A stretch of DNA of 64,000 bases, taken from assembly GCF_006715095.1 (NCBI RefSeq), contig NZ_VFMO01000001.1:1922001-1986000 (forward strand). The letters run 5' to 3'. A program made the translations under genes and the position numbers. Source of the DNA: Yimella lutea. Lineage in GTDB: Bacteria; Actinomycetota; Actinomycetes; Actinomycetales; Dermatophilaceae. Positions 9,417 to 26,977 of this stretch are shown here, in pieces. The stretch's first letter is position 1. Each line of letters starts with the position of its first letter. Under the pieces are notes generated by a model. The model had not been told where the DNA came from. It made no database searches and saw nothing but the letters and a program-made list of their open reading frames with translations.

Positions 9417-9432
9417 GTCGGTACGGTGCGAC
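9417..9432 (-). promoter_or_regulatory. GTCGCACCGT start-linked box (phosphoesterase)
   Basis: Reading in gene direction, GTCGCACCGTACCGAC ends immediately before the ATG at 9416. It is identical to the box before the gene starting at 11744. Confidence 0.75.
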
Positions 9433-9465
9433 GCGCCTGGGCGGTGAGGCCCGTCGCGCGACTGC

Positions 9466-9615
9466 TCAGTCTGCGTAGTGACCGGCTGCCGCGAGCTCCT
9501 TGAGCTTTTCTATCGCGCACGGGGCCATCGTGGCGCGCGGCTGCGGGGACCCGTCGAGTGCATCGAGCAGGTCGACCGAGCAGCGGATGTCACCCCTGAC
9601 CGACTCCGGAGTCAC
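9466..9615 (-). CDS. Small hypothetical protein, 49 residues
   Basis: From GTG at 9615 the frame reads MTPESVRGDIRCSV, continues through LLDALDGSP and ends IEKLKELAAAGHYAD. Codon use is typical for this genome, and the start overlaps the end of the upstream small gene (stop at 9590-9592), suggesting coupling. It contains two Cys and an amphipathic C-terminal helix. No family is recognised; too short for certainty. Confidence 0.45.
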   Translation of the reverse strand: MTPESVRGDIRCSVDLLDALDGSPQPRATMAPCAIEKLKELAAAGHYAD

Positions 9616-9778
9616 GCAAGTCGCGGCACCCGAAGGCATGAACACGCTTGCACTTCGACGCGATCGTGTCGTCTTCTTCGAGTGCGACGTTGGCCGGATC
9701 GGGGACTGTGTGAGTGGTCATCGACGGTGGGTCCGTCGTCTGGACACGAGGTTCGCCGCAGGCGGTCCGAGTGTTCAT
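9590..9778 (-). CDS. Small hypothetical protein led by the conserved box
   Basis: A 62-residue frame (MNTRTACGEPRVQTTD...) whose ATG at 9778 follows the box variant ATCGCACCGTAGCGGT with the same 16-base spacing as the larger genes. An internal Met at residue 20 (MTTHTVPDP) is an alternative start. The middle is acidic (NVALEEDD) and the C-terminus has two Cys. No family is recognised. The box is the main reason to accept it. Confidence 0.5.
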   Translation of the reverse strand: MNTRTACGEPRVQTTDPPSMTTHTVPDPANVALEEDDTIASKCKRVHAFGCRDLRDSGVGQG

Positions 9779-9794
9779 ACCGCTACGGTGCGAT
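9779..9794 (-). promoter_or_regulatory. GTCGCACCGT start-linked box, one-base variant
   Basis: ATCGCACCGTAGCGGT lies directly before ATG 9778. It matches the conserved ten bases except for A in place of the first G, with identical spacing to the start codon. Confidence 0.65.
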
Positions 9795-9797
9795 GGG

Positions 9798-10187
9798 CTA
9801 CGGCTGGTCCGCTCCGACGCCGAGACGTTCGAGCTCGCCGGTCAGCTGGTCGCGGAACTCCTCGTGCACGGCGCAATCCGGTCCGCCACCGTGCTCTGTG
9901 CACCATTCGGCCTCGTACTCACCGCCGTTGCTCGAACCGGACGCGCTCTGTTTGTCGCAGCCGGCGAGCTGGCTCGCGCAGTTCTCGAGCACGGTGTCGT
10001 AGTCGGACCAGTCGGTGCTGCCGCCAGCGTCGTCGAACATTTCCTGCGCCTCGTCGGCAACGCAGGGGTCGACGTAGGTGTCGGTGGCGGGCAGGTCGGC
10101 GGGCGATTCGGCGGCGACGTAGCCGGAGAACGTGCCGTCGCTGTTGCGCAGCTGGCGCGACTCGTCGCGGGTTGTGGTGCTCGACAT
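9798..10187 (-). CDS. Hypothetical acidic protein
   Basis: A 129-residue, strongly acidic, Cys-containing protein (MSSTTTRDESRQLRNSDGTF, later CVADEAQEMFDDAG, ENCASQLAGC and EWCTEHGGGPDCAVHEEF). No membrane segment or known domain. Its start is four bases after the stop of the 10191-10430 gene, so the two form an operon driven from the box at 10454. Function unknown; a mobile-element accessory role is inferred from position only. Confidence 0.6.
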   Translation of the reverse strand: MSSTTTRDESRQLRNSDGTFSGYVAAESPADLPATDTYVDPCVADEAQEMFDDAGGSTDWSDYDTVLENCASQLAGCDKQSASGSSNGGEYEAEWCTEHGGGPDCAVHEEFRDQLTGELERLGVGADQP

Positions 10188-10190
10188 GCC

Positions 10191-10430
10191 CTAAAGAACG
10201 GCGGGAGTGGTCTGCGTTGCGCTGCCGTGCCGCTCCTCATACCGGATACGCGCTTCGAGGCTGCGGGCGGTGTTCCGGTTGTCCTGTGCCTGAGCCTCGA
10301 GAGCTCGTGCAGCCTTTTCCATGTCGACCGCCCGCAGATATTCGGCGGCGTCCTCGTAGGAGTCGGCACGATCTCGAAGGTCGGCGGCGTACTGGGTGTC
10401 GAAGGACATTTGCTCGGACGCGCTGTGCAT
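10191..10430 (-). CDS. Hypothetical helical protein
   Basis: A 79-residue, highly charged, mostly alpha-helical protein (QMSFDTQYAADLRDRADSYE, then EKAARALEAQAQDNRNTARS) likely to form a coiled coil. ATG 10430 is preceded by a GAGGAG Shine-Dalgarno, and about 23 bases further upstream is a conserved box (10454-10469). Unlike the neighbours it therefore has a short leader. No family is recognised. Confidence 0.6.
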   Translation of the reverse strand: MHSASEQMSFDTQYAADLRDRADSYEDAAEYLRAVDMEKAARALEAQAQDNRNTARSLEARIRYEERHGSATQTTPAVL

Positions 10431-10453
10431 GGTGGCTCCTCGGATCTGGTGAT

Positions 10454-10469
10454 GTCGGTACGGTGCGAC
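10454..10469 (-). promoter_or_regulatory. GTCGCACCGT box with a leader
   Basis: GTCGCACCGTACCGAC, identical over 16 bases to the sites at 9417 and 11745, but here 23 bases upstream of the ATG at 10430, with a GAGGAG ribosome-binding site between. This argues that the box is a DNA-level (promoter or operator) signal rather than a translation signal. Confidence 0.7.
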
Positions 10470-10511
10470 GAGCTCGGATCGGTTGGCCGAGGGGGTCGCG
10501 CTGGTCGGAGC

Positions 10512-11744
10512 TCAGCTCGCGGCGGCCTCGATCCGCTTGGCGCGGGTGAGCACAGTCTGCTTGTCCGTGCCGTACATCTCGTGCTTCTTGACGACAGCCG
10601 ACAGGGTGACCGTGTCGCCGGACCGAACGTTGTAGGCCCACGCAGCGCTGGTGTAGATCTTCGCCAGCGTCGCGCCCGCGTCCACGACAAGGAAGCGCTG
10701 CGTGGTGTTGTAAGCGAACCCGTCGACGGTCATCGCGGTGGCAACCACGCCGGTCACCTCGACCTTGTCGCCCACTGTGCCGAGCCACTCGCGCTCGACC
10801 GGCTCGGGTGCGTCCTTGCGGTTGGCGTGCTCGCCACGCATCCGGGCGTAGGCGCCGACCGTGGAAGCCAGCAGGCCGAACTGGCGGGACTCGACCACAT
10901 CGGCTTCCAGCACCGCGACCATGTTGGCCGCGTAGTCGCTGTCCTCGTCCTCGAAGTGTTCACGCACGGCGGTTCGGATCGACTCGGCGGCGGTGGTGTG
11001 CGCAGCCAGGACCGCATCGACCTCGGCACGCAGCTTGCGGTCAACCGTGCTGTTGCCCCACAGGTAGCTCGCCATCAGGTCACGGGTGCTGACGCCGAAG
11101 CTGGAGGCGGCCTTGAACCCACCTCCGACCTCGGCGACCGCGAAGGCCAGGGCCAGCGCGTAGGTCGTCTCGAAGGACTGCGGAGTGTACGAGCCGCGAC
11201 CCCTGCCCGCCTCGATGTCCTCAGTGGACAGGAACACCGGTTTGCCCTCGTGGCCAAGGAAGTCCTTGATGCAGGCCGAGCCGACCTGGATCCGCTCGCC
11301 GGTCTCGACGTTCTCCACCAGGTAGGACTTGCGGCGGTTCGGACGATTGGTGGTGCAGTGGCCGCAGTACCCGACGATGAGTGTTGATCGGTCGACGTTC
11401 GCCTCGGTGCCGGCCGCGCTGCGCACGATCCACGTCACTGACTCACCGGCCGGAAGCACGTCCAGCGACGCCAGGAAGCGCCAGCCGGCATAGCACGGCG
11501 CCTCGCCGGTGATGGTGGTGTCGATCACAGTGACGCGGGCGCCGGCGGGTAGGTCGGGGAACTGGCCTTTGTTCGTGATGATGCGCCGGGTGCCGGTTAC
11601 CTCCAAGCGTCCGGTGAATCCGCGCTTGATCGCACGGGCGTTGATCTTGGCGATCTTGTCGCGGGTCGCTGCGTACTCCTGCGGCAGCAGAGTCGTGGGG
11701 TGGACCTGCGGGTCGGTGTCAGCGGTGGCGGTCTGGTTCGTCAT
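10512..11744 (-). CDS. Zinc-ribbon and OB-fold-like hypothetical protein of mobile elements
   Basis: A 410-residue protein. Around residues 120-160 it reads GYCGHCTTNRPNRRKSYLV then IQVGSACIKDFLG, a four-Cys zinc-ribbon-like pattern also seen in proteins of actinophages and plasmids. The C-terminus (DKVEVTGVVATAM, then SGDTVTLSAVVKKHEMYG) looks like an OB-fold, suggesting nucleic-acid binding. ATG 11744 was chosen because it follows the conserved box directly; the longer upstream frame runs through the box. It is divergent from 11855. The role is inferred, not known. Confidence 0.7.
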   Translation of the reverse strand: MTNQTATADTDPQVHPTTLLPQEYAATRDKIAKINARAIKRGFTGRLEVTGTRRIITNKGQFPDLPAGARVTVIDTTITGEAPCYAGWRFLASLDVLPAGESVTWIVRSAAGTEANVDRSTLIVGYCGHCTTNRPNRRKSYLVENVETGERIQVGSACIKDFLGHEGKPVFLSTEDIEAGRGRGSYTPQSFETTYALALAFAVAEVGGGFKAASSFGVSTRDLMASYLWGNSTVDRKLRAEVDAVLAAHTTAAESIRTAVREHFEDEDSDYAANMVAVLEADVVESRQFGLLASTVGAYARMRGEHANRKDAPEPVEREWLGTVGDKVEVTGVVATAMTVDGFAYNTTQRFLVVDAGATLAKIYTSAAWAYNVRSGDTVTLSAVVKKHEMYGTDKQTVLTRAKRIEAAAS

Positions 11745-11760
11745 GTCGGTACGGTGCGAC
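11745..11760 (-). promoter_or_regulatory. GTCGCACCGT start-linked box
   Basis: GTCGCACCGTACCGAC ends immediately before ATG 11744. A second, oppositely oriented box at 11839 serves the divergent gene; the two are 78 bases apart. Confidence 0.75.
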
Positions 11761-11838
11761 ACGGCTCGGCCGGCCGCTTGGCCCGAGTCCCGTACTGGCA
11801 CAGGGATGCGAGGGACCTATGCGCGAAACGTCACGGGC

Positions 11839-11854
11839 GTCGCACCGTATCGAA
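11839..11854 (+). promoter_or_regulatory. GTCGCACCGT start-linked box
   Basis: GTCGCACCGTATCGAA is followed immediately by ATG 11855. It has the same ten-base core and 16-base spacing as the other sites. Confidence 0.75.
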
Positions 11855-12514
11855 ATGGTTGCTCACCAATCCGCTTCGGCGACGAAGAAGCCGCTGGGCA
11901 AGAAGTCCCTCGCCTTCCGGTTCCGCGCAGTCGCCGCGCAATGGCACCCGACCAAGAACGGGGACCTCACCCCGCGTGACGTCGCGCCGTCGAGCAAGGA
12001 CCGCGCGTGGTGGCGGTGCGAGGTCGACCACGAATGGCAGGCCGCGATCTACACGCGCACCTACCGGGGCTACGGATGCCCGATCTGCTCCAAGAAGGTC
12101 GTCATGCCTGGCGTGAACGACCTCGCGACAGTCCACCCGGACATCGCCGCGCAGTGGCACCCGATCAAGAACGGCACACTGACTCCGCGACAGATCATGT
12201 CCGGCGCCCGCAAGATGCTGTGGTGGGTCTGCGACGCGGGCCATGAGTGGCAATCCACCGGGGCACACCGTGTCAACGGTCACGGATGCCCGATCTGTAC
12301 CAACCAATCGGTTGCTGCCGGGGTCAACGATCTCGCCTCGCAGCGACCCGACCTGGCAAGGCAGTGGCACGCGACCAAGAACAAGCCCGCCTGGCCGGAT
12401 CAGGTGCTCGCGACCGGCACGTTCCTGGCATGGTGGAAGTGCGACAACGGACACGTCTGGCAAGCGACCGTGGCACAGCGGGTCCGTGGCAACACCTGCC
12501 CACGCTGCAGGTAG
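11855..12514 (+). CDS. Treble-clef zinc-ribbon repeat protein (DUF4379-like)
   Basis: A 219-residue protein made of three full repeats. Each has W-W-x-C-x-x-x-H-x-W, about 15 residues, then C-P-x-C, preceded by AxQWHPxKN: WWRCEVDHEWQ/GCPICSKK, WWVCDAGHEWQ/GCPICTNQ and WWKCDNGHVWQ/TCPRCR. These are the treble-clef zinc fingers of the DUF4379 type, common in large phages and in nuclease fusions. No nuclease domain is attached here. ATG 11855 follows the box; an in-frame ATG at 11819 would run through it. A DNA-binding role within the element is inferred. Confidence 0.75.
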   Translation: MVAHQSASATKKPLGKKSLAFRFRAVAAQWHPTKNGDLTPRDVAPSSKDRAWWRCEVDHEWQAAIYTRTYRGYGCPICSKKVVMPGVNDLATVHPDIAAQWHPIKNGTLTPRQIMSGARKMLWWVCDAGHEWQSTGAHRVNGHGCPICTNQSVAAGVNDLASQRPDLARQWHATKNKPAWPDQVLATGTFLAWWKCDNGHVWQATVAQRVRGNTCPRCR

Positions 12515-12562
12515 GACGCGCGCCAGCCCCACCAGGCCTGGCAGGCAGACCGGCCCAAGCGC

Positions 12563-12578
12563 GTCGCACCGTATCTCT
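12563..12578 (+). promoter_or_regulatory. GTCGCACCGT start-linked box
   Basis: GTCGCACCGTATCTCT is followed immediately by ATG 12579, keeping the 16-base spacing. Confidence 0.75.
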
Positions 12579-12971
12579 ATGACTACCGAAACCCGCACCG
12601 TCCTCGTTGAACGCTCCTACCTGGTCCGCGTGACCCAGACGTATCGGGTCACCGCGCCGGTGGATCTGATCGAGGACGACGACGCCGACTTCGACCAGTT
12701 CGTCTGTGACCAGGGCGAACTGCTGTCCGACGAGACCGCCTGCATCGACGACGACCAACTCGAGACGGTTGTCCGTGGCGACGCCCCGGACAAGCCGGCG
12801 TACGCACCGGGTCTGTACCGACTGATCCGCGTCCTGCAGAAAGGCGACGTGTCGACCCGATTCGCTGAGCACACCACCGAGGGGCTCTGGATGATCGGCG
12901 GCATCGAGGGCCTGCTGTCGACCCAGTTCGTTAAGGAGATCCTCCTCTTCCCCATGATCGAAGCCGTCTGA
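12579..12971 (+). CDS. Hypothetical acidic protein led by the conserved box
   Basis: A 130-residue acidic protein (MTTETRTVLVERSYLVRVTQ, then APVDLIEDDDADFDQFVCDQ). No membrane segment and no recognised domain. The start is fixed by the box; the longer frame upstream overlaps the zinc-ribbon gene in another frame. Likely an accessory gene of the mobile element. Confidence 0.65.
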   Translation: MTTETRTVLVERSYLVRVTQTYRVTAPVDLIEDDDADFDQFVCDQGELLSDETACIDDDQLETVVRGDAPDKPAYAPGLYRLIRVLQKGDVSTRFAEHTTEGLWMIGGIEGLLSTQFVKEILLFPMIEAV

Positions 12972-13071
12972 ACGACAAGGCGAGCAAGCCGCTCGGGGAC
13001 GCTTTGTAGGCAGATCACTGAGACCGCCGCACGTCCTGCGGAGCGAGCCATGCGTGCCGTTCCTGTTTCAT

Positions 13072-13242
13072 ATGGTTGAACTGACGCAGACCGCAACCGA
13101 GAAGTTGTGGGCAGACGAGCACCCGCTGGGTTTGCTCGAGCGCGGCGACCTTGACTTACTTCCGGACCGGGTGGAGCACCCGGACCTGTTGAGGTACCTG
13201 GACAGTGTCTTGAGGCGACACCTTTGTACCGGGTCGCGATAG
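13072..13242 (+). CDS. Possible small protein upstream of the RiPP-like operon
   Basis: From ATG 13072 a 56-residue frame reads MVELTQTATEKLWADEHPLG and ends LDSVLRRHLCTGSR; an in-frame ATG at 13054 would add six residues. Third-position base use is moderately GC-rich, consistent with coding, but no ribosome-binding site stands out. It lies 120 bases before the precursor-like gene and could be a second small peptide of that system or unrelated. Weak evidence. Confidence 0.3.
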   Translation: MVELTQTATEKLWADEHPLGLLERGDLDLLPDRVEHPDLLRYLDSVLRRHLCTGSR

Positions 13243-13361
13243 TACGAACTAGGTAAAAAACCGACAAGTAGGGTTTGTTTGGCGAGTGCGCAGGAACAAG
13301 ATGTTGGTGCGGACGATCCGACAGGCGGATCGACCAAGCCGCAGTTCCGAAGGAGAGTGCA

Positions 13362-13520
13362 ATGCGTTACGAGAGCACATACGAGGACGACCTCGCCGCA
13401 GCCGTCGCCCGCATGGAGGCATCGGAGAACGGATTGGCCGACCAGGCTCGCACCTACGAGCCCGGCACGAACGTCTGGTACATCGCCTACAAGACCATCG
13501 CGCCGAGCGAATCCGCCTGA
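13362..13520 (+). CDS. Putative RiPP precursor peptide, 52 residues
   Basis: ATG 13362 has a strong ribosome-binding site (AAGGAGA, 13350-13356). The peptide starts MRYESTYEDDLAAAVARMEA, an acidic helical leader-like half, and ends in an aromatic/hydroxyl-rich tail with YEPGTNVWYIAYKTIAPSESA-type composition. Size, charge split and position at the head of an operon with a modifying-enzyme-like protein, an exporter and a methyltransferase fit a RiPP precursor. A hairpin (13531-13574) separates it from the next gene, as is usual for precursors. No known RiPP class is recognised, so this is inference from context. Confidence 0.55.
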   Translation: MRYESTYEDDLAAAVARMEASENGLADQARTYEPGTNVWYIAYKTIAPSESA

Positions 13521-13530
13521 GCCCACTCCT

Positions 13531-13574
13531 GGTACGGGGTGGGAATGGCTAATCACGGCACCTCGCCCCGTACC
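13531..13574 (+). terminator. Stem-loop between precursor-like gene and operon
   Basis: GGTACGGGG (13531-13539) pairs perfectly with CCCCGTACC (13566-13574). It sits 10 bases after the peptide stop and 44 bases before the next start, with no U-run. It may act as a leaky terminator or RNA-stabilising hairpin giving more peptide than enzyme mRNA. Confidence 0.5.
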
Positions 13575-13617
13575 CGGGATTGTTTACACCGTCAATCGCG
13601 CAGAAGGAGCAAATATC

Positions 13618-14766
13618 GTGCACACCGCAGTGAACGACCTATCCCTCCGGGAGGGAGTGACTCGCCTGCTCGACAGCTACATCGGCGTGTCGTCGCACGA
13701 CCACGTTCTACTTGCGTACACACCAGATAGCCGCAGGTATGCCGCGGCCGTCTCGCTGGAGCTGGCTGGCAGGGGCATCCGCCATACGACGTTCCCCATG
13801 CTTCCGCTCGAAGACCCCGGTCTTCGGGACCGACTCGCGTGCGTCCTTCCGGACCCGGCGTCATTCCGTGGTTCGTTCGTTGCTCTGACACTCGAATTGG
13901 ACACGATGTCACATTTCGACGAGTTCTCGGACATCATCGACGCGTACGGCGCGGCACGGGCAAAAGTGGTCCGCATCATCAGTGCAACGGAGGAGTTGTT
14001 CACCTCGGGACTTGCACTTTCTCCGACCGTGATGGAGCGCCTTAATGCGACGCTCATGGCATGGCTCCGGGATGCACGCTCCGTTCATCTGAGCAACGAG
14101 GCGGGCACGGACCTCACGGTGGAACTCGACCAGGATCGCTATGACTGGATCAGCAACCGCGGACGCCACCGGCCGGGTGCATTCCTGGTGCTCCCACCGG
14201 GTGAGATAGCGACCTACCCCGCTCGGGTCAACGGCATCTACTGCCCCGACGGTGCGATCAACTGCAACGTCCTGACGGAGCTCGACGTTCTGCTCGCCGA
14301 CGCAGCACTTCGGCTTGAGATCGTCGATTCCAGAGTCGTTTCGTTCCAAACGACGCGGGACGATGTGCGGCAGTTCCTGTCATCAGCATTCGCCCAGGAG
14401 CATGGCAACCGGATCGGCGAGCTAGGCTTCGGGACGAATCGGGCGCTGCACCGCTTCATCCCGCACAATAGTCATCTCAACGAGCGTTTCCCCGGCATCC
14501 ATCTGGGGATTGGTCAGCACAATCAGACTCTTGAGAATGTGCCCTACTACTGTCCGACACACATCGATTTGGTGGCGACACGTGCGCGGATCACCAAGGA
14601 GAGCGGCGAGACGCTCGACTTAGCGTCATTCCCACCGGATCCCTCGGTCGAACACCCGCGCCTCGTCCGTGATCAGGACGTGAACGGCGACTGCTGTTCA
14701 AGTGGCTGCTCCCTCGTCACCCTTCCGACACGCGGTACAGGGCCGGAGGCCGTCGTCATTGGGTAG
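13618..14766 (+). CDS. M29 aminopeptidase-fold (aminopeptidase T-like) metalloprotein
   Basis: A 382-residue protein. The second half follows the M29/AmpT fold: GTDLTVELDQDRYDW, GAFLVLPPGEIATYPA, then the metal-site segments IGELGFGTN (Glu), LNERFPGIHLGIG (Glu and His) and CPTHIDLVATRA (His and Asp). The fold also occurs in NicX-type ring dioxygenases, so peptidase activity is not certain. Two vicinal Cys and a third lie near the C-terminus (GDCCSSGCSL). GTG 13618 has AGAAGGAGC upstream. In this operon it may process or modify the upstream peptide. It overlaps the MFS gene by eight bases. Confidence 0.75.
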   Translation: MHTAVNDLSLREGVTRLLDSYIGVSSHDHVLLAYTPDSRRYAAAVSLELAGRGIRHTTFPMLPLEDPGLRDRLACVLPDPASFRGSFVALTLELDTMSHFDEFSDIIDAYGAARAKVVRIISATEELFTSGLALSPTVMERLNATLMAWLRDARSVHLSNEAGTDLTVELDQDRYDWISNRGRHRPGAFLVLPPGEIATYPARVNGIYCPDGAINCNVLTELDVLLADAALRLEIVDSRVVSFQTTRDDVRQFLSSAFAQEHGNRIGELGFGTNRALHRFIPHNSHLNERFPGIHLGIGQHNQTLENVPYYCPTHIDLVATRARITKESGETLDLASFPPDPSVEHPRLVRDQDVNGDCCSSGCSLVTLPTRGTGPEAVVIG

Positions 14767-16791: not shown

Positions 16792-16923
16792 CGCCTCACC
16801 GTCGGGCTGCACGAGGATTCCTGTCGGCGCCGGGCGGATGGTGCGCGCGTTCGGCGGCCAAGCGGTGTTAAGCACCTGCTGAACGACGAATCGCCGCTGA
16901 CCGTGCTCGTCGACCTCGCGCAT
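16774..16923 (-). CDS. Small hypothetical protein, 49 residues
   Basis: From ATG 16923 the frame reads MREVDEHGQRRFVVQQV, then LNTAWPPNARTIRPAP, and ends in a Ser-rich tail. Codon use looks genuine, and it follows the small membrane protein gene on the same strand by 22 bases. Its 3' end overlaps the convergent methyltransferase gene. No family is recognised. Confidence 0.4.
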   Translation of the reverse strand: MREVDEHGQRRFVVQQVLNTAWPPNARTIRPAPTGILVQPDGEASSSST

Positions 16924-16945
16924 GACGACATCGTCGCACCGGGCA

Positions 16946-17295: not shown

Positions 17296-17296
17296 G

Positions 17297-19644: not shown

Positions 19645-19645
19645 G

Positions 19646-19661
19646 ATGCTGACGGTGCGAC
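19646..19661 (-). promoter_or_regulatory. GTCGCACCGT start-linked box
   Basis: GTCGCACCGTCAGCAT is followed by one base and ATG 19644, so spacing is 17 rather than 16 bases. Confidence 0.7.
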
Positions 19662-19750
19662 GTCCGTGAAAAATGGACATCACGATCGACGAACCGCGCA
19701 ATGCCGCGGCTCATTGGGCGTCAGAAACCGCTAAGTCGTCAGCGATGAGG

Positions 19751-19795
19751 CGACGAACCCCGGCAGAGCCCACCCATGCCTGCCGGGGTTCGTCG
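19751..19795. terminator. Strong stem-loop after the VirB4-like gene
   Basis: CGACGAACCCCGGCAG (19751-19766) pairs perfectly with CTGCCGGGGTTCGTCG (19780-19795) around a 13-base loop. It lies just after the VirB4-like stop (19810, minus strand) and before the box of the next gene. The 16-bp GC-rich stem should act as a transcription terminator, separating the two operons. Confidence 0.8.
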
Positions 19796-19809
19796 GTCTA
19801 TGAGTTCGC

Positions 19810-22800
19810 CTAACTGGCGGCGAACATGTCGGCATCCTCGTCGGCGGCGGTGATGATGACCGGCTCGGTGGCCTCGATCGGGGCCGAGTCCTTGGACAGC
19901 AACCGCAACCGCTTCTTCGCCTCACGGCGCGCGATGTCGACAGGGTTCGTCGACGCCATCTCGAGGAAGTCCGGCGGCAGGTCGATGACGACAGGAACGG
20001 CTCGACCTTCCAGGTCGATGTGAATACCGACCGCGCCGCGTTTGACGATTCGCGGCCCGCCCTCGTCGTCGCTCTTCATGACCAACGCCTTGAGTGAGTT
20101 CCAGTTCAGGCCAGCGGAGTCCTCCGCGGCATCCGTGCCCTTACCGAGCGACGACCGGGCGGTGATCCGCTCCAACCGCTCCTCGGTCGGTTCCAGTTTG
20201 AACAAGGCGCAGGCGGCCAGTGCCTCTTCCCGGTCAGCGATGTGCATGATCAGCCCGCGACTGATGAATCCGGTCAGACCCGCGTTCACGGCGTCGCTGA
20301 CGCGCTGGGTGTAGAGAATTGGCAGCACCCTCAACTGGCGCACCAGACGACCGATGCGGTCCAGCTCCTCGGGGCTGTTGTTCGTGAGAACCCACGCCTC
20401 GTCGAAGTGGCAAACACCGTCGCGGTACGCCAGCGCCATCACTGAACCGAAGACCGCCATGCGCACCAGCTGCGCGGCGATGCGCTGGTTCATCGTCGTC
20501 GCCGGCTTGCCCATCGGCGGCAGCTCCAGGCTGGAGTCACCGACGAAGATGTAGGTGATGCCGTCGGCCACGGCGAGCCCCTCAGCCTGCGGGTCCATCC
20601 CCACACAGGCGCGGAAGTTGATGGAGGTTTCCGCGTAGTCGAGGATCGGCTTCACCATGTCCTCGGATGCCTTCTTGGCGTCCAGAGCGATCTTGAGGGC
20701 CTGACCGATGCAGGTGGCACCGTTCTTCACGCCGTAGTCGAGCGCGACCATCAGCTGCGACTCATACTTCTTGGAGCCTTCCGGCCACGGCGAGACTTCC
20801 AGCAGCATCGAGCTCGCGTACTCCAGGCCGGCCTTGACGTCGTGACTGAAACGCAGCGGGTCGAAGACACCGTCACCGGAGGTGAGGTCGGACAGCTTGA
20901 GGCACTGTCCTCCAGCTGCACGCACGGTGTCGGAGTGGTCGGATCCCGGCTTCCAGTCGGTGATGATCTGGGGGACACCGGCACGGGCCCACTGATCGGC
21001 CATGTTCAGCAGCGACATCGTGTTGCTGCTTGGGATGAAGCCGCCGGCGAGGTAGACGTGGTCCGGGTCGGCCACGGTCAGGCACCGACCAGGCACTGAT
21101 TCGATCGGCTGGATGTCGGTGATGTAGAGCCACTTCTGGGTGTCGCGAACCGTCAACGGCAGCTTCTCCCGCTTTCGGGGCAGACGGAAGATCTCCTGGT
21201 TGGTGGTGAACACCATCCGGTAGCGGGTTCCGGTGACGGTGCGGGTCTTCTCACCGGTCTCCGGGTCGGTGAGCGTGTACGCGGCCTCAGCCTCCCGCAT
21301 CGCTACCTTGATGCCGAGCGAACGGGTGAGCTCCAGTGCGTCGTGGGCGAGATCTTGCTTGCACAGGGTGAGTTCGCACGCGCCTTCGGCGCCGATCGAC
21401 CCGTCGGTGTCCATGAGCCCCTGCAGCACCGCGAGGCGCTGCTCGTAGCTGCCGCGCAGGTAGGCCATTGGGATGCGCTTGTCTGCGAACACCCCTGCCT
21501 CCCGAAGCGCGGGACGCATTCCGAGCACGTTGATCGTCTTCACGCCACACGTACCCACCGTGAAACCAGCGCGCTCCAGTTCGCGACACAGGTACTCCTG
21601 GTCGGTCACACCGCAGCGATCCGTACAGGATCCCGCGGTGCCACTGGTGAACTGCCCATTCCCTGTGGTGCCGTCACCGAGCCACGCACCCAGGATGTAC
21701 GGATCCAACGGCAGGTCGGCTTCAGGCAGCTGGATCGCTTCGGCGAGGCGGATCGCGAAGTTGCTGTGCGTGCCGGCGTGCTTCAGCCCGGCAGCCAGCA
21801 TTTCGCCGGTGGTCATCCGCTGCTCCATGACACCGGTGACCGGCTTGTTGTGGAGCTGCTGGTCCAGGCGGGCTGCCAGCGACTTCAGGGCGATGTTGGT
21901 CGCGTAGAAGTTGACCGGGTGCTGGCCGGTGAAGTGACCGCCGAGCGGGACGGTGACTTCACGGAAACCCTTGCGGGACTGCACTCCAGCGGCGCGGCCG
22001 CACGTTGCCAGTTCGGCCTTGGCCCCCTGACGGAAGTCTCCTTGGTGAGCACGCAGCATCCGGGCGATCTCAGCGGCGGTTTCTTCGCGGCCGTCGTCCA
22101 GGTCGGCCAGGATCGACTGGGCCGCGGCGACGCGCGAGGCGATGCGGTCCTTCCACCGGGCAGCGTTGCCGGGGGAGGTGGTGGTCCAGCGGGAGATGTT
22201 GGCTTCGAGCAGTTCACGCACCGGCCACAGCACCACCGGGTCGATCTTGACGATCGGCTCGGTGCGGTGACGGGTGGCGGTCTTTGACTGCATCCTGGTG
22301 ACGAACGGGGCGTCCATCATCACTAGGGCGGCACGGACAGCGTCCGGACCGGACCACGGGTTGAGCGCACCGAGCTCGACATCGAGCAGGCGGTGCAGTT
22401 CGGTCACGCTGGCACCGGTGTCGTCGGCAGCCAAACGCTCAGCGAGGTCGTGGACGCGGTCCGCGACGGCGCGCTTCTCCTCCCACCGAGTGATGGCCTC
22501 GCGGTGATCGCCGGAGTTGTTACGGTGCCGGTCCTTGAAGCTGGACACGACCCACTGGTGGTCGAAGTCCGCGTCGAGGGTCTGGCCATCGGAGAAGGTG
22601 ATCCGGTACAGGTCCGGGTTCGGGTTGACCGGCGACAGGTAGGTGATCGTGGTGATCTTCCCGTTGCGTCCGAGGACCTCGTCACCGACCTTTAGATCGC
22701 CAACTCGCGTGTTGCCCAACGGAGTTGGCAAAGTAGTTGACATGTCAAGGAGCTTACCCGACCCGGTTCCGGCGGCAACCAGGAACATCGGCAGTTGGTC

Positions 22801-24183
22801 CTCGTTGGCTGCCGCGTCGCTGGAGATGTAGACCGGCTGCTTGTCGTTCTCGGTGAAGCCGAGCAGCGCACCGGTCCTGTCGCCGCACATCGCGAGGTTC
22901 GGTGCCCCGGTGAAGGCCGCGGCTGTCGCCGGCAGGTCGCGCAGGTTGGGGTTGGATCGGACATTGGACCCAAGCATCATCTCGGCCAGCGCCTTCTCCT
23001 GGCGCTCAGTGAGCAGGCCGAGCTTCACTCGGGCCGTCTCACCACGCACGTCGTAGGACCCGCCTCGCGAACCGTTGAGCGCCGTAACGATCGAGCAGTC
23101 GATGATGCTCGGCAACGACAAGGTCGAACCGGAGTACAGGTCTTCCATCTGGCGCAGCGTTTCGAGCTTCTCGTCCTGCTCGGCGCGGTCCATCGCACCC
23201 TGAGAGCGCGACTCGTTGATGTCGGCCATCATCCGGCGGCGGCCGGAGCGCAGCTCGTTGCGGGTAATGTCCGTCGGTTCGACCTTGCCGCGCAGACTGA
23301 CCGCCTGAGCGCCGGCGCCGAGCAGCTCCGGGAAGAAATGCACCTCGGAGGAGTTGATGTCGCGCCAGTTGAAGTTGAAGGTGTCGAAGGCCGACATCGA
23401 CAGTGTGTGCGTCTGCCGCAGCTTCTTCCACTCCGGGGCCGAGCACGGCACCTTGTCCCGCTCGAGCCGGGCGGCGTCGGTGAGTGAACCGGGCGCGGTG
23501 AACATGTGCAGGTGGTCGGAGTGAACCAGGTAGGGCACGTCGGCGTTGCGACCCAGGTTCCACCACGAGTCCGCCAGGTGCAGCTGCTCACTAGTGGCCT
23601 CGATCATGCCGGCACGGGTCAGTGCAGCGGAGACCTTCTTGAAGTCCGCGGCGTACTCGGGAAGTTGCACGCCGACGTTCTGCAACGTGATCGCCTCGGT
23701 GAGCGCCTGCAGGGCGTAGTCCCAACCGGAACGGAAAGCCGAGTTACGCAGCCGGACCCCGAACAGCAGCAAGCGCTGGTCGACAGTCTTGCCGGAGAAC
23801 TGCTGGGCGAGGTAGGCCTTCAGCGGCTGCTTGTCGTCCGGGACGTACAACTTCGGCACGTTCACCAGCAGCATGTGGATGTCCCGGTAGTTGTGCTTGG
23901 ACATGCGCCGGTTCTTCGCCATCGACCGAGAGGTGAGCGCTTCGACCTCCTGGCAGGCCCGGAAGATCGGGGATCCGATGTCGACGGCGTCCTTCATCGA
24001 CCGCGCGGAAACGACGGGGCCGAGCGGCACACGGCGGTACAGCCAGACCTCGTTGTTGACCGTGACGATGACGCCGGAGGAGTAGACCTTCTTGACCTGA
24101 GTGGGCCAGTCCGGCTGGTCGTCGGTGATCGGCGAGTTCAGCTTCTTGGGCTTGCTGTTCTTGGGTGCGTTCTTGGTAGCCAT
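19810..24183 (-). CDS. VirB4/TraC-like conjugation ATPase interrupted by an intein
   Basis: A 1457-residue precursor. Residues 1-477 and 1055-1457 form a VirB4-like type IV secretion ATPase of about 880 residues. Walker A is split: GTGSGK (472-477) comes before the intein and T1055 (TMSLLNM) after it, restoring GTGSGKT on splicing. Walker B is VCHFDEAW, followed by RVLPILYTQR. Such ATPases sit at the inner face of the membrane and power DNA transfer. ATG 24183 has AAGGAGA upstream; the longer frame to 24456 is Arg/Pro nonsense over the neighbouring gene. It lies 20 bases after the TcpC-like gene and ends before a strong terminator. Confidence 0.9.
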   Translation of the reverse strand: MATKNAPKNSKPKKLNSPITDDQPDWPTQVKKVYSSGVIVTVNNEVWLYRRVPLGPVVSARSMKDAVDIGSPIFRACQEVEALTSRSMAKNRRMSKHNYRDIHMLLVNVPKLYVPDDKQPLKAYLAQQFSGKTVDQRLLLFGVRLRNSAFRSGWDYALQALTEAITLQNVGVQLPEYAADFKKVSAALTRAGMIEATSEQLHLADSWWNLGRNADVPYLVHSDHLHMFTAPGSLTDAARLERDKVPCSAPEWKKLRQTHTLSMSAFDTFNFNWRDINSSEVHFFPELLGAGAQAVSLRGKVEPTDITRNELRSGRRRMMADINESRSQGAMDRAEQDEKLETLRQMEDLYSGSTLSLPSIIDCSIVTALNGSRGGSYDVRGETARVKLGLLTERQEKALAEMMLGSNVRSNPNLRDLPATAAAFTGAPNLAMCGDRTGALLGFTENDKQPVYISSDAAANEDQLPMFLVAAGTGSGKLLDMSTTLPTPLGNTRVGDLKVGDEVLGRNGKITTITYLSPVNPNPDLYRITFSDGQTLDADFDHQWVVSSFKDRHRNNSGDHREAITRWEEKRAVADRVHDLAERLAADDTGASVTELHRLLDVELGALNPWSGPDAVRAALVMMDAPFVTRMQSKTATRHRTEPIVKIDPVVLWPVRELLEANISRWTTTSPGNAARWKDRIASRVAAAQSILADLDDGREETAAEIARMLRAHQGDFRQGAKAELATCGRAAGVQSRKGFREVTVPLGGHFTGQHPVNFYATNIALKSLAARLDQQLHNKPVTGVMEQRMTTGEMLAAGLKHAGTHSNFAIRLAEAIQLPEADLPLDPYILGAWLGDGTTGNGQFTSGTAGSCTDRCGVTDQEYLCRELERAGFTVGTCGVKTINVLGMRPALREAGVFADKRIPMAYLRGSYEQRLAVLQGLMDTDGSIGAEGACELTLCKQDLAHDALELTRSLGIKVAMREAEAAYTLTDPETGEKTRTVTGTRYRMVFTTNQEIFRLPRKREKLPLTVRDTQKWLYITDIQPIESVPGRCLTVADPDHVYLAGGFIPSSNTMSLLNMADQWARAGVPQIITDWKPGSDHSDTVRAAGGQCLKLSDLTSGDGVFDPLRFSHDVKAGLEYASSMLLEVSPWPEGSKKYESQLMVALDYGVKNGATCIGQALKIALDAKKASEDMVKPILDYAETSINFRACVGMDPQAEGLAVADGITYIFVGDSSLELPPMGKPATTMNQRIAAQLVRMAVFGSVMALAYRDGVCHFDEAWVLTNNSPEELDRIGRLVRQLRVLPILYTQRVSDAVNAGLTGFISRGLIMHIADREEALAACALFKLEPTEERLERITARSSLGKGTDAAEDSAGLNWNSLKALVMKSDDEGGPRIVKRGAVGIHIDLEGRAVPVVIDLPPDFLEMASTNPVDIARREAKKRLRLLSKDSAPIEATEPVIITAADEDADMFAAS
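21022..22752 (-). other. Class 3 intein with LAGLIDADG homing endonuclease
   Basis: A 577-residue insertion (residues 478-1054 of the ATPase). It begins LLDMSTTLPTPLG, with no Cys/Ser at position 1. Block B ends DADFDHQWVV (intein 61-69), block F has VPGRCLTVADPDHVYL (Cys557), and it ends FIPSSN followed by extein Thr. HQW plus block F Cys plus +1 Thr is the WCT signature of class 3 inteins, as in mycobacterial DnaB. Two LAGLIDADG motifs, ILGAWLGDG (353-361) and LQGLMDTDG (443-451), keep their acidic residues, so the endonuclease may be active. The 577-residue length allows a large extra region between splicing and endonuclease blocks. Confidence 0.92.
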
Positions 24184-24202
24184 GTTGGGTGGTCTCCTTG
24201 GA

Positions 24203-25363
24203 TCAGTTCGAGGAGGACGCGTCGGAGGTACTCGACGGCGCGGCCGGAGTGGAGGTGCCGCCGCCTGACGCGGACGGCGATCCGGTTCCGGTCGGGGCGC
24301 TGGTGTTCGCGGTGCCGCCGGGGTCGCCCTTCGTCGTGGGCTCCGAGGTCTCCGCTGACGGGGCGGTCGCGGTACCGAGCACGTTCGCAGGCACCGTGAT
24401 CGCGTTGACGTACGGCTTGAGCCGGGGCCCGGACCCAGGGGCACCCCAGGCGACAACCTGCGGCGCGGCCGTGTCGGCGCGCTGGATGAGGACGTCGAAG
24501 ATCATCGGGGTGACTTGCCCGCTGCTGCTGTTCGAGCGACCCGCCCAGGTCGGCTGGAGTTCGACGCGAGCGATCGTGCCGTCCTTGGTCGTCGCCATCG
24601 CGGACGCCGAGGCTGTGACCGAGGTGATGCCGGACAGCGCCAAGTAGGTGTGCGAGGAGTCGCCGTCACCGACAGCCACGCGCAGAGCGTCGGCATCGCC
24701 GGAGGTGTAAGCAGTCGCCCATGACTGCACAGCCGTCGAAACCGACGGTGTGACGTCGCCGCCCGGCTCCAGACCCGGCCACAGTTCGGTGCCGGCCCAT
24801 CCGTCGGTCGCGGCCTGCGGGATCGGAATGAGCGATGGACCGAACATGACCTGCGCTCCGCCGCGGGGGTCGACCGACACCTCGAGAGTGGCGGTGTACC
24901 CGCGTCCGGCGCCATCGAGAACGGTGAAGTTCTCCAACATCCGGCTGACCTTGGTCTTGTCATATCCGGGCTGCTTCACCGAACCGTCCCAGGACATGAT
25001 CTGTCCGCCGGGGAGCGGGGCGGGCACCGCGTCAAGCCAGGACTGTAGTGCCGAGGTGGCTGCGAACTTTCCAGGATCGTCCTCGACCTTGCCCATGTCA
25101 GCGATGCCGTTCGCCTTCAGTTCGGCGACCTCGTCCTGGTTGCTCGCGGCCAGGTTGGAGGCGTTCACCGAGCCGAGGCAGGAGACCGGGATCATCGACA
25201 AGGAGACGATGAGACCCCACTTGATGAGCTTGCCGCGCCGAATGTTCTTCTCGCGCAGGTCGAGGTCCGCGCGCGGCGCGGTCTCCATTTCACCGAACAG
25301 GTCACCGCCGTCTGCGATGTCCAGGTTCTCGGTGCCTGACTTCTTCTTGGTCAGCAGGGCCAT
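24203..25363 (-). CDS. TcpC/VirB8-like conjugation protein
   Basis: A 386-residue protein with a cytoplasmic N-terminus rich in Lys/Asp, one membrane segment (about residues 50-70, KWGLIVSLSMIPVSCLGSV) and an extracytoplasmic part. That part has two stretches resembling NTF2-like domains (ALQSWLDAVPAPL and VQSWATAYTSGDADALRVAV), then a Ser/Thr/Pro/Gly-rich tail. This is the layout of TcpC (Tn916 Orf13-like)/VirB8-type scaffold proteins. ATG 25363 has AAGGAGC upstream. It is adjacent to the VirB4-like gene, as in Gram-positive conjugation loci. The family call is from layout and context. Confidence 0.65.
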   Translation of the reverse strand: MALLTKKKSGTENLDIADGGDLFGEMETAPRADLDLREKNIRRGKLIKWGLIVSLSMIPVSCLGSVNASNLAASNQDEVAELKANGIADMGKVEDDPGKFAATSALQSWLDAVPAPLPGGQIMSWDGSVKQPGYDKTKVSRMLENFTVLDGAGRGYTATLEVSVDPRGGAQVMFGPSLIPIPQAATDGWAGTELWPGLEPGGDVTPSVSTAVQSWATAYTSGDADALRVAVGDGDSSHTYLALSGITSVTASASAMATTKDGTIARVELQPTWAGRSNSSSGQVTPMIFDVLIQRADTAAPQVVAWGAPGSGPRLKPYVNAITVPANVLGTATAPSAETSEPTTKGDPGGTANTSAPTGTGSPSASGGGTSTPAAPSSTSDASSSN

Positions 25364-25400
25364 GTGGGGTGGGCTCCTTGGTCGCGGGTGGGAAGGACGG

Positions 25401-26006
25401 TCAGCGCAGGGTGGACAGCACGGATTGCACGGTCTGCAGGTCGTCGTCGGACAAGCGGCCGGCGGCACGAGCCAGGTCACGGCCGACGTGCAAGTTGTCG
25501 CCGGTCGGGACGCGCTCAGACAGGTCAGGCAGGAAGATGCCGAGCAGCGACCAGACGCCGCGCAGCATCGGCTTGTCCTCGGCGATCCCAGCGGCAGCCA
25601 CCAGGGCGTCCATCGGGTCGTCAGCGCGCAGCTGGTCGATGAGTTCGGCGACGGCTGACGGGCTGGACGCTCCAGCCGGCGGCATGACGGCGGCGATCGT
25701 CACCGACTTGGCGTCCGCGGAGCAGCCGAGCAACGTCGCGGCCAACTGCAGGTGCGCGGACTCCATGTCGCGGAAGTCCTCGTACTTGTCCAGCGCTGCC
25801 ACGAGCTTGCGGCGCTGGGTGCGCTCCCGCTCGGCGGCAGCACGAGCCTGCTTCTGCTCCTCGGAGAACTCCCGGGCCTTGGTGGCCTTCTTCTTCGGCG
25901 CCTCGGTCTGCTCGACCTGCTGCGTCGACGCGTCGTCGGAAACGGGATCGGATCCGCGGTCGGACGCCGAACCGTAGGTGCTGTTGGGAAGGCTGTAATC
26001 GCTCAC
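25401..26006 (-). CDS. Hypothetical helical protein of the conjugation operon
   Basis: A 201-residue protein. The N-terminus is Ser/Asp-rich; a Lys/Arg/Glu coiled-coil-like stretch follows (APKKKATKAREFSEEQKQAR, then AAAERERTQRRKLV), and then a helical C-terminal half (SAVAELIDQLRADDPMDALV). GTG 26006 starts MSDYSLPNSTYG; the longer frame upstream crosses repeats and other genes. No domain is recognised. It precedes the TcpC-like gene by 37 bases. Confidence 0.55.
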   Translation of the reverse strand: MSDYSLPNSTYGSASDRGSDPVSDDASTQQVEQTEAPKKKATKAREFSEEQKQARAAAERERTQRRKLVAALDKYEDFRDMESAHLQLAATLLGCSADAKSVTIAAVMPPAGASSPSAVAELIDQLRADDPMDALVAAAGIAEDKPMLRGVWSLLGIFLPDLSERVPTGDNLHVGRDLARAAGRLSDDDLQTVQSVLSTLR

Positions 26007-26017
26007 ACCTGTTTCAT

Positions 26018-26181
26018 GGGCAACCTTTACGGAGCCAGGGTGCGGTTTCTGCCGGCGGTCGGAAGTTGCCCAGCCGGACGTAGTCCGGTGGGTAGATCCC
26101 GTTGAGCCAGGGTCGACCTTTGCGGGGGAGGGAGCTACCCACCGGCGCTTCACCTCCGTGGGCAACTTCCACGGAGCCAGG
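26018..26181. repeat. Repeat cluster: direct repeats plus two inverted repeats
   Basis: Two 22-base direct repeats (26018-26039 and 26160-26181, three differences, both ending ACGGAGCCAGG) flank a hairpin CCGGAC-GTA-GTCCGG (26074-26088). They also flank an 11-bp perfect inverted repeat CCGGTGGGTAG (26085-26095) / CTACCCACCGG (26135-26145). The cluster lies between two minus-strand conjugation-region genes. It could be an origin of transfer, an operator array or a duplicated leader region; nothing here decides between them. Confidence 0.55.
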
Positions 26182-26206
26182 CCTGTCAGGGCTGCGCCGT
26201 TGGTCA

Positions 26207-26383
26207 CTACCGGGGGATCGCCAGGTAGCCGACTCCGGCGCAGGTCCAGAGCGAGACGATGAACGCCGCAGTTGTTGCCCAGCGGGCGATGGCATGTGGG
26301 TGGTCTGCGTACTGCCGTGCCGCCCACCCGGACAAGGCCAACGAGGACAGAGCCGTCGCGGCGGCCCAGGCGAGGGATGTCAC
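26207..26383 (-). CDS. Small membrane protein, 58 residues
   Basis: GTG 26383 overlaps the stop of the upstream gene (GTGA). Two hydrophobic segments are present (SLAWAAATALSSLALSGWAA and ATTAAFIVSLWTCAGVGYL), separated by a short charged loop. It is translated with the 64-residue box-led gene upstream. Function unknown. Confidence 0.55.
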   Translation of the reverse strand: MTSLAWAAATALSSLALSGWAARQYADHPHAIARWATTAAFIVSLWTCAGVGYLAIPR

Positions 26384-26574
26384 TGCGCAGCGGAAGGCAG
26401 CTCGACCAGATCGCCGGGGCGATACACGATGTGCTGTCCGCGCAGGTGGGCCGCAGTGGGATTGGTGGCGGCGAGGTCGGCATCGAACAGGTCGGCCGGT
26501 TCGAGCCACAATCCGCGCCGGGCCCGGAGCCGTTCCACGGCGTTCACGGTTGTCGTTGAGCTGGTCGGTTCCAT
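26380..26574 (-). CDS. Small hypothetical protein led by the conserved box
   Basis: A 64-residue protein (MEPTSSTTTVNAVERLRARR, ending VYRPGDLVELPSAAQ). ATG 26574 follows the box with one extra base; the in-frame start at 26670 would run through the box and the divergent regulator gene. No family is recognised. Coupled to the small membrane protein downstream. Confidence 0.55.
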   Translation of the reverse strand: MEPTSSTTTVNAVERLRARRGLWLEPADLFDADLAATNPTAAHLRGQHIVYRPGDLVELPSAAQ

Positions 26575-26575
26575 G

Positions 26576-26591
26576 ATTCCCACGGTGCGAC
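26576..26591 (-). promoter_or_regulatory. GTCGCACCGT start-linked box
   Basis: GTCGCACCGTGGGAAT, then one base and ATG 26574 (17-base spacing). It lies between this gene and the divergent HTH regulator starting near 26623. Confidence 0.7.
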
Positions 26592-26622
26592 GTAGGGGCT
26601 GTCCCACCGTCTCCTGCGATGG

Positions 26623-26921
26623 TTGGACGCAGAGGTGGACGAGGACATGGCTGAAGAGATAGGACGGCACGGATCAGGTCCGGCCGGGGAACCCGGCCTG
26701 ACGTGGAACCTGCGGGTGCTGGCCGCCGAGCGGAAGATCTGGACGGCTGTCGATCTGCACCGCCGGTTGCTTGATGAGGGCGTCGGGATCAGTCACCCAC
26801 AGGCGAACCGAGTGCGCGGTCTGTTCCGATCCGGCTGCCGATCGAGCAACTGGCCGCGCTGTGCCGGATCCTGGAGTGCACGCCGAGCGACTTGCTGCTG
26901 CCGCGCGACGCAGTGAACTGA
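26623..26921 (+). pseudogene. XRE-family (Cro/C1-type) regulator with a frameshift
   Basis: The first frame gives TWNLRVLAAERKIWTAVDLH and LLDEGVGISHPQANRV, the N-terminal helices of a common actinobacterial Cro/C1-type regulator. The expected second half (RLPIEQLAALCRILECTPSD, then LLLPRDAVN and stop at 26919-26921) lies in the next frame, so one base is missing or extra at about 26815-26830. It is divergent from a box-led operon and just upstream of another box (26929). The intact protein would be a natural candidate regulator of the boxes, but this is inference. Confidence 0.7.
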
Positions 26922-26928
26922 CAGGTCC

Positions 26929-26944
26929 GTCGCACCGTGCCGGT
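26929..26944 (+). promoter_or_regulatory. GTCGCACCGT box upstream of a leadered gene
   Basis: GTCGCACCGTGCCGGT lies 33 bases before TTG 26978, with a GAAAGAAGG ribosome-binding site between. Like the site at 10454 it serves a gene with a short leader. Confidence 0.65.
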
Positions 26945-26977
26945 TGACTGTCCGTTTCTCGACGAAAGAAGGCCGCC

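Follow-up and report, generated by a model that had tools for sequence, protein, structure and literature searches.

Results

Box-preceded genes in the window

We describe here a 64,000-nucleotide stretch of the Yimella lutea genome, hereafter the window (positions 1922001-1986000 of genome G000, a single contig of 3,533,116 bases), and a ten-base box, GTCGCACCGT, that recurs in it directly ahead of start codons. The whole window (1..64000) lies within a 316,617 bp integrated element, element A (genome 1900976-2217593), and we propose that the box belongs to a promoter private to that element, probably read by a sigma factor of the element itself. Coordinates refer to the window unless marked as genome positions, and N6 or N7 stands for six or seven bases of any kind between the box and a start codon.

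On the plus strand, the boxes at 11839..11848 and 12563..12572 are each followed by N6 and an ATG, at 11855 for a 219-aa gene and at 12579 for a 130-aa gene. The same spacing is found on the minus strand for the box at 11751..11760 (ATG at 11744, 410-aa gene), for that at 9423..9432 (ATG at 9416, a 35-codon open reading frame (ORF)) and for a one-base variant, ATCGCACCGT, at 9785..9794 (ATG at 9778), while N7 separates the minus-strand boxes at 26582..26591 and 19652..19661 from the ATGs at 26574 (64-aa gene) and 19644. The latter ATG opens the 376-aa core gene A67 (18514..19644, minus), whose product matched no Pfam family at E 0.001 and is 36.5% identical to its counterpart in element B, a second element described below, where the orthologue is also preceded by a box. 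Two further sites look leadered: the minus-strand box at 10460..10469 has an A at the predicted +1 (ATC), with a GAGGAG ribosome-binding site and then an ATG further downstream, and the plus-strand box at 26929..26938 has no start codon at N6 or N7, which makes a leadered arrangement likely. The first-pass annotation of this DNA had placed a ribosome-binding site between box and ATG in both cases; this is borne out at 10460 by the GAGGAG motif, and at 26929 it stands as the likely arrangement.

All eight exact copies and the variant that had been listed there were recovered, on the strands claimed and with the six-base or seven-base spacing claimed, and four exact copies had been overlooked. 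One of these (7962..7971, plus) stands at the upstream end of a TnpB unit of the IS200/IS605 type, with no start at N6 or N7 and the TnpB ATG at 8013. The exact ten-mer at 38350..38359 (plus) falls between called genes, has no start codon at N6 or N7 and may be due to chance, and those at 54706..54715 and 63243..63252 (both minus), each within a called gene and lacking a start codon at the spacing, are probably chance occurrences.

Twelve exact copies in the window compare with 0.5-0.7 expected under Markov models of orders 1-4; with one mismatch allowed there are 28 copies against 14.5 expected, a number reached in none of 100 shuffles. Genome-wide, GTCGCACCGT occurs 141 times and the reversed pattern 10 times. 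Boxes were mapped in two retrieved stretches of the genome (1,880,001-2,240,000 and 2,680,001-2,700,000): 107 of the 141 copies are inside element A, none is in the remaining 43 kb retrieved around it, and six are in the 20 kb stretch at 2.68 Mb, so that the range first noticed (9417-26944) covers a small portion of the real feature. Chance as the origin of the repeats is rejected by the excess in the window, the excess in the genome and the intolerance of mismatches documented below.

Element A ends in two tRNA-Pro(GGG) copies, identical at 71 of 75 positions, one of which is adjoined by the gene of a Phage_integrase-family protein (E = 1e-17; genome 2215726-2217003, outside the window). It thus shows the flanking tRNA repeat and the adjacent integrase of an integrative element. 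The window lies between these two ends and is thus wholly internal to it.

Spacing and invariance of the box

In element A an ATG stands at N6 after 56 boxes and at N7 after 17, and four GTG codons bring the total to 77 of 107 boxes at start-codon spacing; in element B the corresponding figure is 46 of 55. No TTG was found at N6 or N7, and start codons at other offsets between 0 and 26 are rare, with at most three ATG or five GTG at each. The base directly before the box is a C in 93% of the 59 N6 sites of element A, and position -1 of the N6 sites is a pyrimidine (C or T) in 95% of cases in A and 83% in B. The purine at +1 of these sites follows from the selection of ATG and GTG, and for boxes without a start codon a purine is present at N6 or N7, two positions being allowed, in 24 of 25 cases in A and in 7 of 7 in B.

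The box tolerates almost no substitution. Elements A and B together hold 104 exact 11-mers (C-GTCGCACCGT) with an ATG at N6 or N7, while all 33 single-substitution variants together account for just 8, one of them the variant ATCGCACCGT of the window; some 300 letter-shuffled 11-mers gave a mean of 0.013 and a maximum of 1. Most boxes are also intergenic: 98 of the 107 are outside called genes, though called genes make up 79% of element A, a count to be read with the fact that the gene caller's choice of starts favours boxes outside genes where the box has a start codon. Among the 30 boxes of element A without a start codon, 23 are outside called genes.

An upstream element was searched for, and no -35 was found in A or B, the maximum information content upstream of the box in element A being 0.27 bits. 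The earlier statement that no -35 is shared is thus correct for element A, and relatives from the Arthrobacter group do have one (see below). The near-zero tolerance of mismatches and the mostly pyrimidine -1 position lead us to read the box as a predicted extended -10 of leaderless promoters, and the presence of a ribosome-binding site downstream of the box at some sites without a start codon at +1, such as 10460, indicates that the box needs no start codon.

A second element carries the same box

Samples of genomes were drawn as subsets from relatives, family, order and phylum. Among 197 genomes of relatives only G000 and G024, the latter from another genus, stand out, with 80 and 35 matches to the box and at most 5 in any other; among 186 genomes of the family the figures are 73 and 35, with at most 2 elsewhere, and in a sample of 396 genomes of the phylum the 395 others have one match at most. 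In the unrelated genomes sampled, a comparison that the first-pass annotation had proposed as a possible refutation, the ten-mer is at background, which does not refute the reading.

Element B, in G024, spans 150.6 kb and holds 55 boxes; it is bounded by a tRNA-Ala gene and its repeat (93.6% identity over 110 bases), with an integrase homologue beside. Comparison of A with B gave 56 reciprocal-best protein pairs, with a box before both genes in 16, before the A member only in 3, before the B member only in 3 and before neither in 34 (odds ratio 60, p = 2e-8). The box is thus kept in 16 orthologous pairs between related elements, and the other refuting comparison proposed did not refute the reading either. 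In the 16 box-sharing pairs the 11-mer is 100% identical, whereas the flanks are 26% identical, no more than chance, and the proteins 27-55%. 

Related giant plasmids have boxes of their own

A core protein of element A (1000 aa; genome 2015436-2018438, outside the window), which has a sub-threshold DUF3854 match and to which we assign a replication role by inference, served to find relatives of the element. Homologues of this presumed replication protein occur in 8 of 72,556 plasmid records, all of 375-608 kb, and in three GTDB contigs. The eight plasmids come from Arthrobacter, Pseudarthrobacter, Paenarthrobacter and Curtobacterium, and boxes were examined in five of them (pACHL01, pPA-B-2242, pS16, D40 and an unnamed Arthrobacter caoxuetaonis plasmid), from which 43 kb was fetched. 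In these 43 kb GTCGCACCGT occurs once and never at start-codon spacing, while a blind k-mer count in the plasmids brought out CCGCACACA(T) in the Arthrobacter group and CCGCGCATAG in Curtobacterium.

Each motif was then counted over nine whole genomes or records. The pattern CCGCACACAT-N6-8-RTG (R, purine) is found 48, 68 and 81 times in the three Arthrobacter-group plasmids, 70 times in A. terrae, 10 times in Sinomonas and 14 and 15 times in the two Curtobacterium plasmids, with 0 in both G000 and G024 and 0 for the reversed control in all nine. Conversely, CGTCGCACCGT-N6/7-RTG is found 78 times in G000, 46 times in G024 (control 1) and 0 times in the other seven, and CCGCGCATAG is found 105 and 88 times in the Curtobacterium plasmids and 0-16 times elsewhere, the 16 being in the 4.3 Mb Sinomonas genome (control 5). 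In a sample of 396 genomes of the order, one (G545) has 6 matches to CCGCACACAT-N6-8-ATG and the others at most 3.

When positions are numbered back from the predicted start, all three boxes have a purine at -13, a pyrimidine at -10 and the fixed bases C-17, C-14, C-12 and A-11; A-11 is the base that sigma region 2 flips out in promoter melting. Upstream of the Arthrobacter-group boxes (40 sites, five loci pooled) there is a G at -37 in 40 of 40 and the pair G-37 and A-33 in 37 of 40. At its fixed distance, this pair is a -35 element with the geometry of a sigma-70-type promoter. Curtobacterium sequence (221 kb) yielded 57 boxes, of which 55 show a purine at +1 and 19 a start codon there; for those without a start codon the purine is kept in 36 of 38 (p = 5e-9 against 0.5, a generous null, since the purine share is 0.37 to 0.79 at positions -6 to -2 and 0.29 to 0.79 over nearby positions, and the true contrast is smaller). 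In the Arthrobacter group, +1 is a purine in 16 of the 19 boxes that lack a start codon. The signature of a transcription start therefore persists where there is no start codon.

A sigma-like protein as the candidate reader of the box

The five plasmids have a gene cassette close to the presumed replication gene, with an AAA/ParA-like ATPase, a member of the function-unassigned A120 family and, at 278-295 aa, the sigma-like protein; in four of the five annotations the cassette also holds a small protein, which in one plasmid resembles actinobacterial integration host factor (IHF; E = 0.0014, below cut-off). In A. terrae the A120-family, small and sigma-like proteins were found by tblastn. Element B has all four cassette genes; in element A a predicted membrane protein (by eye) replaces the small gene. 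The sigma-like protein of this cassette is 344 aa long in A (genome 2008261-2009295, minus, about 22 kb past the window end) and 273 aa in B.

Full-length and colinear similarity of the element A protein to TIGR02937, the sigma70-ECF superfamily model, was detected over residues 41-274 (E = 3.1e-5), and the element B protein gave a Sigma70_r3 match below cut-off (E = 0.0037). When a profile of the family was compared with the sequences of the PDB, the first match was sigma-28/FliA (E = 1.1e-4), with SigA entries at 0.07-0.7. For each of two low-confidence AlphaFold models, each of the top 50 Foldseek matches is, judged by its title, either a sigma factor or a chain from an RNA polymerase complex; residues 2-108 of one model fit SigW at 3.4 A over 91 residues, and the VIA-align list consists of sigma factors, again by titles.

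The family is found with the elements and, as far as the plasmid records reach, with the presumed replication protein: the two occur in the same 8 of 72,556 plasmids, at most 5 kb apart by coordinates, and the sigma-like protein is present in both elements and in all eight plasmids found. A Curtobacterium member searched against both whole genomes (E up to 0.1) retrieved only the sigma-like gene in each, at E 5.5e-4 and 1.8e-4. Between A and B the best-conserved stretch (20 of 32 columns identical, versus 77 of 261 overall) corresponds by eye to region 3, the region that contacts extended -10 DNA in known sigma factors. That A and B, which lack a -35, seem by eye to have the most divergent region-4 helix is suggestive only. 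In the plasmids seen, the family is annotated only as 'hypothetical' or 'HTH domain-containing' (helix-turn-helix) protein.

Other candidates fared less well. The product of the ORF at 26623, which the first-pass annotation had named as a protein to test for binding, has no Pfam match at E 0.01; it was rejected as the regulator, and the sigma-like protein outside the window is the best candidate. A sigma factor recognisable by Sigma70_r2 was rejected, no protein of either element having matched this model. A likeness to region 2 noted by eye in A120, A67 and A296 was likewise dropped, with no sigma Pfam match at E up to 10 and with hhalign at background for the A120 family.

Discussion

The sequence comparisons make a strong case for the box as a promoter, and we consider it likely that a divergent sigma factor encoded by the element reads this private promoter code and drives dozens of the element's genes as one regulon. 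The box would form the extended -10, from -17 to -7, of a promoter specific to the element, with host core RNA polymerase and the divergent sigma-70-family factor recognising C-GTCGCACCGT and transcription starting at a purine 6-7 bases downstream of the box. As the start would mostly coincide with the first base of the start codon, the mRNAs of box genes are predicted to be leaderless. Element A could in this manner run about 80-100 transcription units of its own as one regulon, with promoters distinct from those of the host, and may thereby be expressed in different genera while relying little on host promoters. The cargo at 28-64 kb of the window and several of the conjugation-like genes, having no box at the gene start, would fall outside this regulon. 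The related giant plasmids would follow the same design, each with its own sigma-like protein and its own box, and A120-family and IHF-like proteins may act as co-factors. The box, its spacing and conservation, the related boxes and the presence of the sigma-like protein in both elements and all eight plasmids are seen directly in sequence; the promoter role of the box, this protein as its reader and the leaderless mRNAs are inferred. The first-pass annotation had taken the box for a possible extended -10 of a dedicated promoter with leaderless transcripts, and the boxes together for one regulon of a mobile element that has a promoter or regulator to itself; this reading fits the present findings, on more than ten times as many sites as it had at hand, and its alternative of an operator is weakened.

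Several observations weigh against this proposal. The sigma-like protein is under every curated cut-off (23.7 versus 42.9 bits for TIGR02937), Pfam gave no sigma match for the element A protein, and hhalign to four host sigma factors was weak (probability 15%, P = 0.0017). The family profile's second PDB match, at E = 5e-4, fell on the C-terminal HTH and was to 8vd6, a designed repeat protein, and the two AlphaFold models have low confidence (mean predicted local distance difference test scores of 63 and 54, from two-sequence alignments). As a lone query the element A protein found no plasmid match at E 0.01, and it finds one near-identical protein in a large protein database. The sigma-like proteins of A and B are 30% identical while their boxes are identical, and the box is more invariant than expected for a sigma promoter. 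Of the three GTDB contigs with the presumed replication protein, that of Sinomonas (L067) yielded no more than a fragment of the sigma-like gene, although its genome has 10 boxes, and the 22.9 kb of A. globiformis (L066) contained neither a sigma-like gene nor CCGCACACAT. The Curtobacterium plasmids have two box types, CCGCACACAT being found at start spacing 14 and 15 times in the two of them, beyond the Arthrobacter group, together with extra partial sigma-like matches (W02:C1:35580-36206, 403706-403975 and 409179-409451; W05:C1:365574-366185, 529019-529294 and 535391-535636), and a pairing of boxes with proteins was not achieved; two full-length extra copies lack region 3 by eye, and the others match the C-terminal part only. 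The A120-family and IHF-like proteins could also contribute to recognition. Finally, the gene caller is our own and favours starts that follow a box; the number of box genes, the A/B pairing and the count of boxes outside genes are all inflated as a result.

In place of a dedicated promoter, the box could be the operator of an element-encoded repressor or activator, lying over the -10 of promoters read by the main sigma factor of the host. It does cover the -10 region, with the A at -11 and the T at -7 of a TANNNT hexamer, and leaderless promoters are reportedly common in actinobacteria; yet the box is no clear palindrome, its register with the start codon is fixed, the bases from -9 to -7 vary among lineages, and a host-like T at -12 is not tolerated, the C-to-T variant occurring once and never with an ATG at N6 or N7. 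Since, in addition, A and B have no conserved -35 and the fixed-spacing element of the Arthrobacter group reads GG..A rather than TTGACA, we think an operator unlikely. A promoter read by something other than the sigma-like protein, namely the A120-family protein, an unrecognised phage-type polymerase or a host sigma with an element factor, strikes us as rather improbable. The A120 family is as conserved and syntenic as the sigma-like protein in the loci compared, the near-absolute invariance of the box recalls what is said of single-subunit polymerase promoters, and several large core proteins have no Pfam match; on the other hand, the A120 family has no similarity to host sigma factors, no polymerase-like Pfam match was found in the subset of element proteins scanned, and the bipartite layout of the Arthrobacter group fits a sigma factor.

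The position of the box just before start codons would also suit a translation signal in the mRNA, like some mycobacteriophage start-associated sequences. This we hold to be very unlikely, given that at 10460 the box stands upstream of a gene equipped with a separate ribosome-binding site, that 38 of 57 Curtobacterium boxes lack a start codon at +1 while 36 of these 38 keep the purine, and that the partner at -37 to -33, at fixed spacing, would sit far upstream in such an mRNA. It is hardly credible that the repeats are copies left by recent duplication or by an insertion sequence, free of any regulatory role: one IS200/IS605-type unit does carry the box in three copies and part of a satellite locus at 2.68 Mb matches a stretch of the element at 97% identity, whereas orthologous boxes keep an identical 11-mer between flanks at chance likeness and the boxes sit outside called genes far beyond the coverage of these, also when those without a start codon are taken separately (23 of 30). 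Spread by duplication is rejected on the unlike flanks.

The sigma factor proposed here resembles the sigma-70 family (FliA/WhiG and extracytoplasmic function (ECF) branches) by its weak full-length TIGR02937 match and by FliA as its top PDB match, and it differs in being too divergent for curated cut-offs and in being encoded near the presumed replication gene of giant elements; the predicted promoters differ from those of the family in a C-rich extended -10 and, in A and B, in mostly leaderless starts. That a mobile element can encode a sigma factor for itself is already known. SigN (ZpdN) of the Bacillus subtilis plasmid pBS32 is reportedly a mobile-element-encoded sigma that drives the genes of its element, with a smaller, induced regulon; that system belongs to a different phylum, whereas in the present case a single box, nearly invariant and mostly leaderless, is common to dozens of units and related plasmids have other boxes. 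The start-associated sequences of cluster K mycobacteriophages are said to be short repeats before start codons that overlap the ribosome-binding site. Like the box they are short, conserved and repeated before the start codons of one mobile genome, but the box has no GGAGG-type core, and at 10460 the ribosome-binding site is downstream of it. The late promoters of phiKZ, reportedly phage RNA polymerase promoters with leaderless transcripts, share with the box a private motif tied to the start codon; in contrast, no polymerase was recognised among the element proteins scanned, and relatives of the element have a -35 partner. The five giant actinobacterial plasmids have a homologous presumed replication protein and a related cassette, and, unlike element A, they are recorded as free circular molecules of 375-608 kb with other boxes and no CGTCGCACCGT at start-codon spacing. 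Compared with these systems, the scale (dozens to about 100 units per element), the near-invariance and the mostly leaderless layout in A and B appear to be new, and so do the different boxes of related plasmids alongside a diverging family of sigma-like proteins.

Somewhat more tentatively, we favour the view that a fast-diverging sigma factor encoded near the replication gene of each giant actinobacterial plasmid or integrative element would provide orthogonal, element-wide transcription, with lineage-specific codes in which sigma and box changed together and one branch lost the -35. This would be a private programme for a whole replicon rather than a regulon for stress or induction. If our proposal is true, a private promoter code serves a large share of the genes on elements of hundreds of kilobases. 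This would help to account for their life in different genera with no need of host promoters. They would supply natural pairs of sigma factor and promoter differing in few bases, a system for the evolution of sigma specificity, as well as a large natural set of predicted leaderless mRNAs. The box with its spacing would be a way of finding such elements in genomes, and a function is proposed for a family so far left with generic annotations.

Other features of element A

The element encodes FtsK/SpoIIIE-type ATPases, M23 and NlpC/P60 peptidoglycan hydrolases, a sortase, a single-stranded DNA-binding protein (SSB), a RecG-like helicase and a PD-(D/E)XK nuclease; several of the conjugation-like genes start without a box, and no relaxase or VirB4 model matched among the element proteins scanned. 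A phage origin is disfavoured by a PHROGs scan, by phage records and by viral contigs. In the PHROGs scan of ten core proteins, one of them from element B, five matched helicase, exonuclease or FtsK-like families and five matched none, the RecG-like protein also giving a strong match to the function-unassigned phrog_34613 (E 6e-109); the presumed replication protein and an Arthrobacter sigma-like protein had no match among 50,697 phage records, and two scans of viral contigs found no relative.

A cargo block with no box at its gene starts occupies 28000-64000 of the window (genome 1949.5-1986 kb) and continues to about 1994 kb. It includes genes for a LanM-like lanthionine synthetase (38516-41560), an ATP-binding cassette exporter, a C5 cytosine methylase, a HATPase protein, a thiamine pyrophosphate enzyme, and major facilitator superfamily and amino-acid permeases.

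The IS200/IS605-type TnpB unit is present in element A as three copies that are 99-100% identical (8013-9278 in the window; genome 2012133-2013398 and 2195625-2196890), each with a box at its upstream edge. The 35-codon ORF (9309-9416, minus) adjoins the end of the window copy and looks, by eye, like the beginning of a metallophosphoesterase that the insertion may have truncated. The satellite near a tRNA-Met gene (locus L027, genome 2685582-2688085) comprises a 2.1 kb stretch 97% identical to 2002408-2004499 of the element and two short neighbouring pieces; of the six boxes in the 20 kb locus, five have an ATG at N6.

Element A also contains 27 tRNA genes (genome 2086789-2142780), 22 of them in one array at 2139753-2142780, and a box stands directly after the tRNA-Gln gene at genome 2089827. 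In both elements the presumed replication genes are separated from the operon with the sigma-like gene by a gap (genome 2013398-2014467 in A; G024 1842803-1843953 in B) that holds AT-rich stretches, ACT/AGT repeats and CGCGCG-rich palindromes and looks origin-like by eye. A core protein of 1457 aa (19810-24183, minus; 1363 aa in element B) has a weak LAGLIDADG or homing-endonuclease-like stretch (E about 0.02), possibly an intein, and a direct repeat array with a 39-bp period is present at 722-1189.

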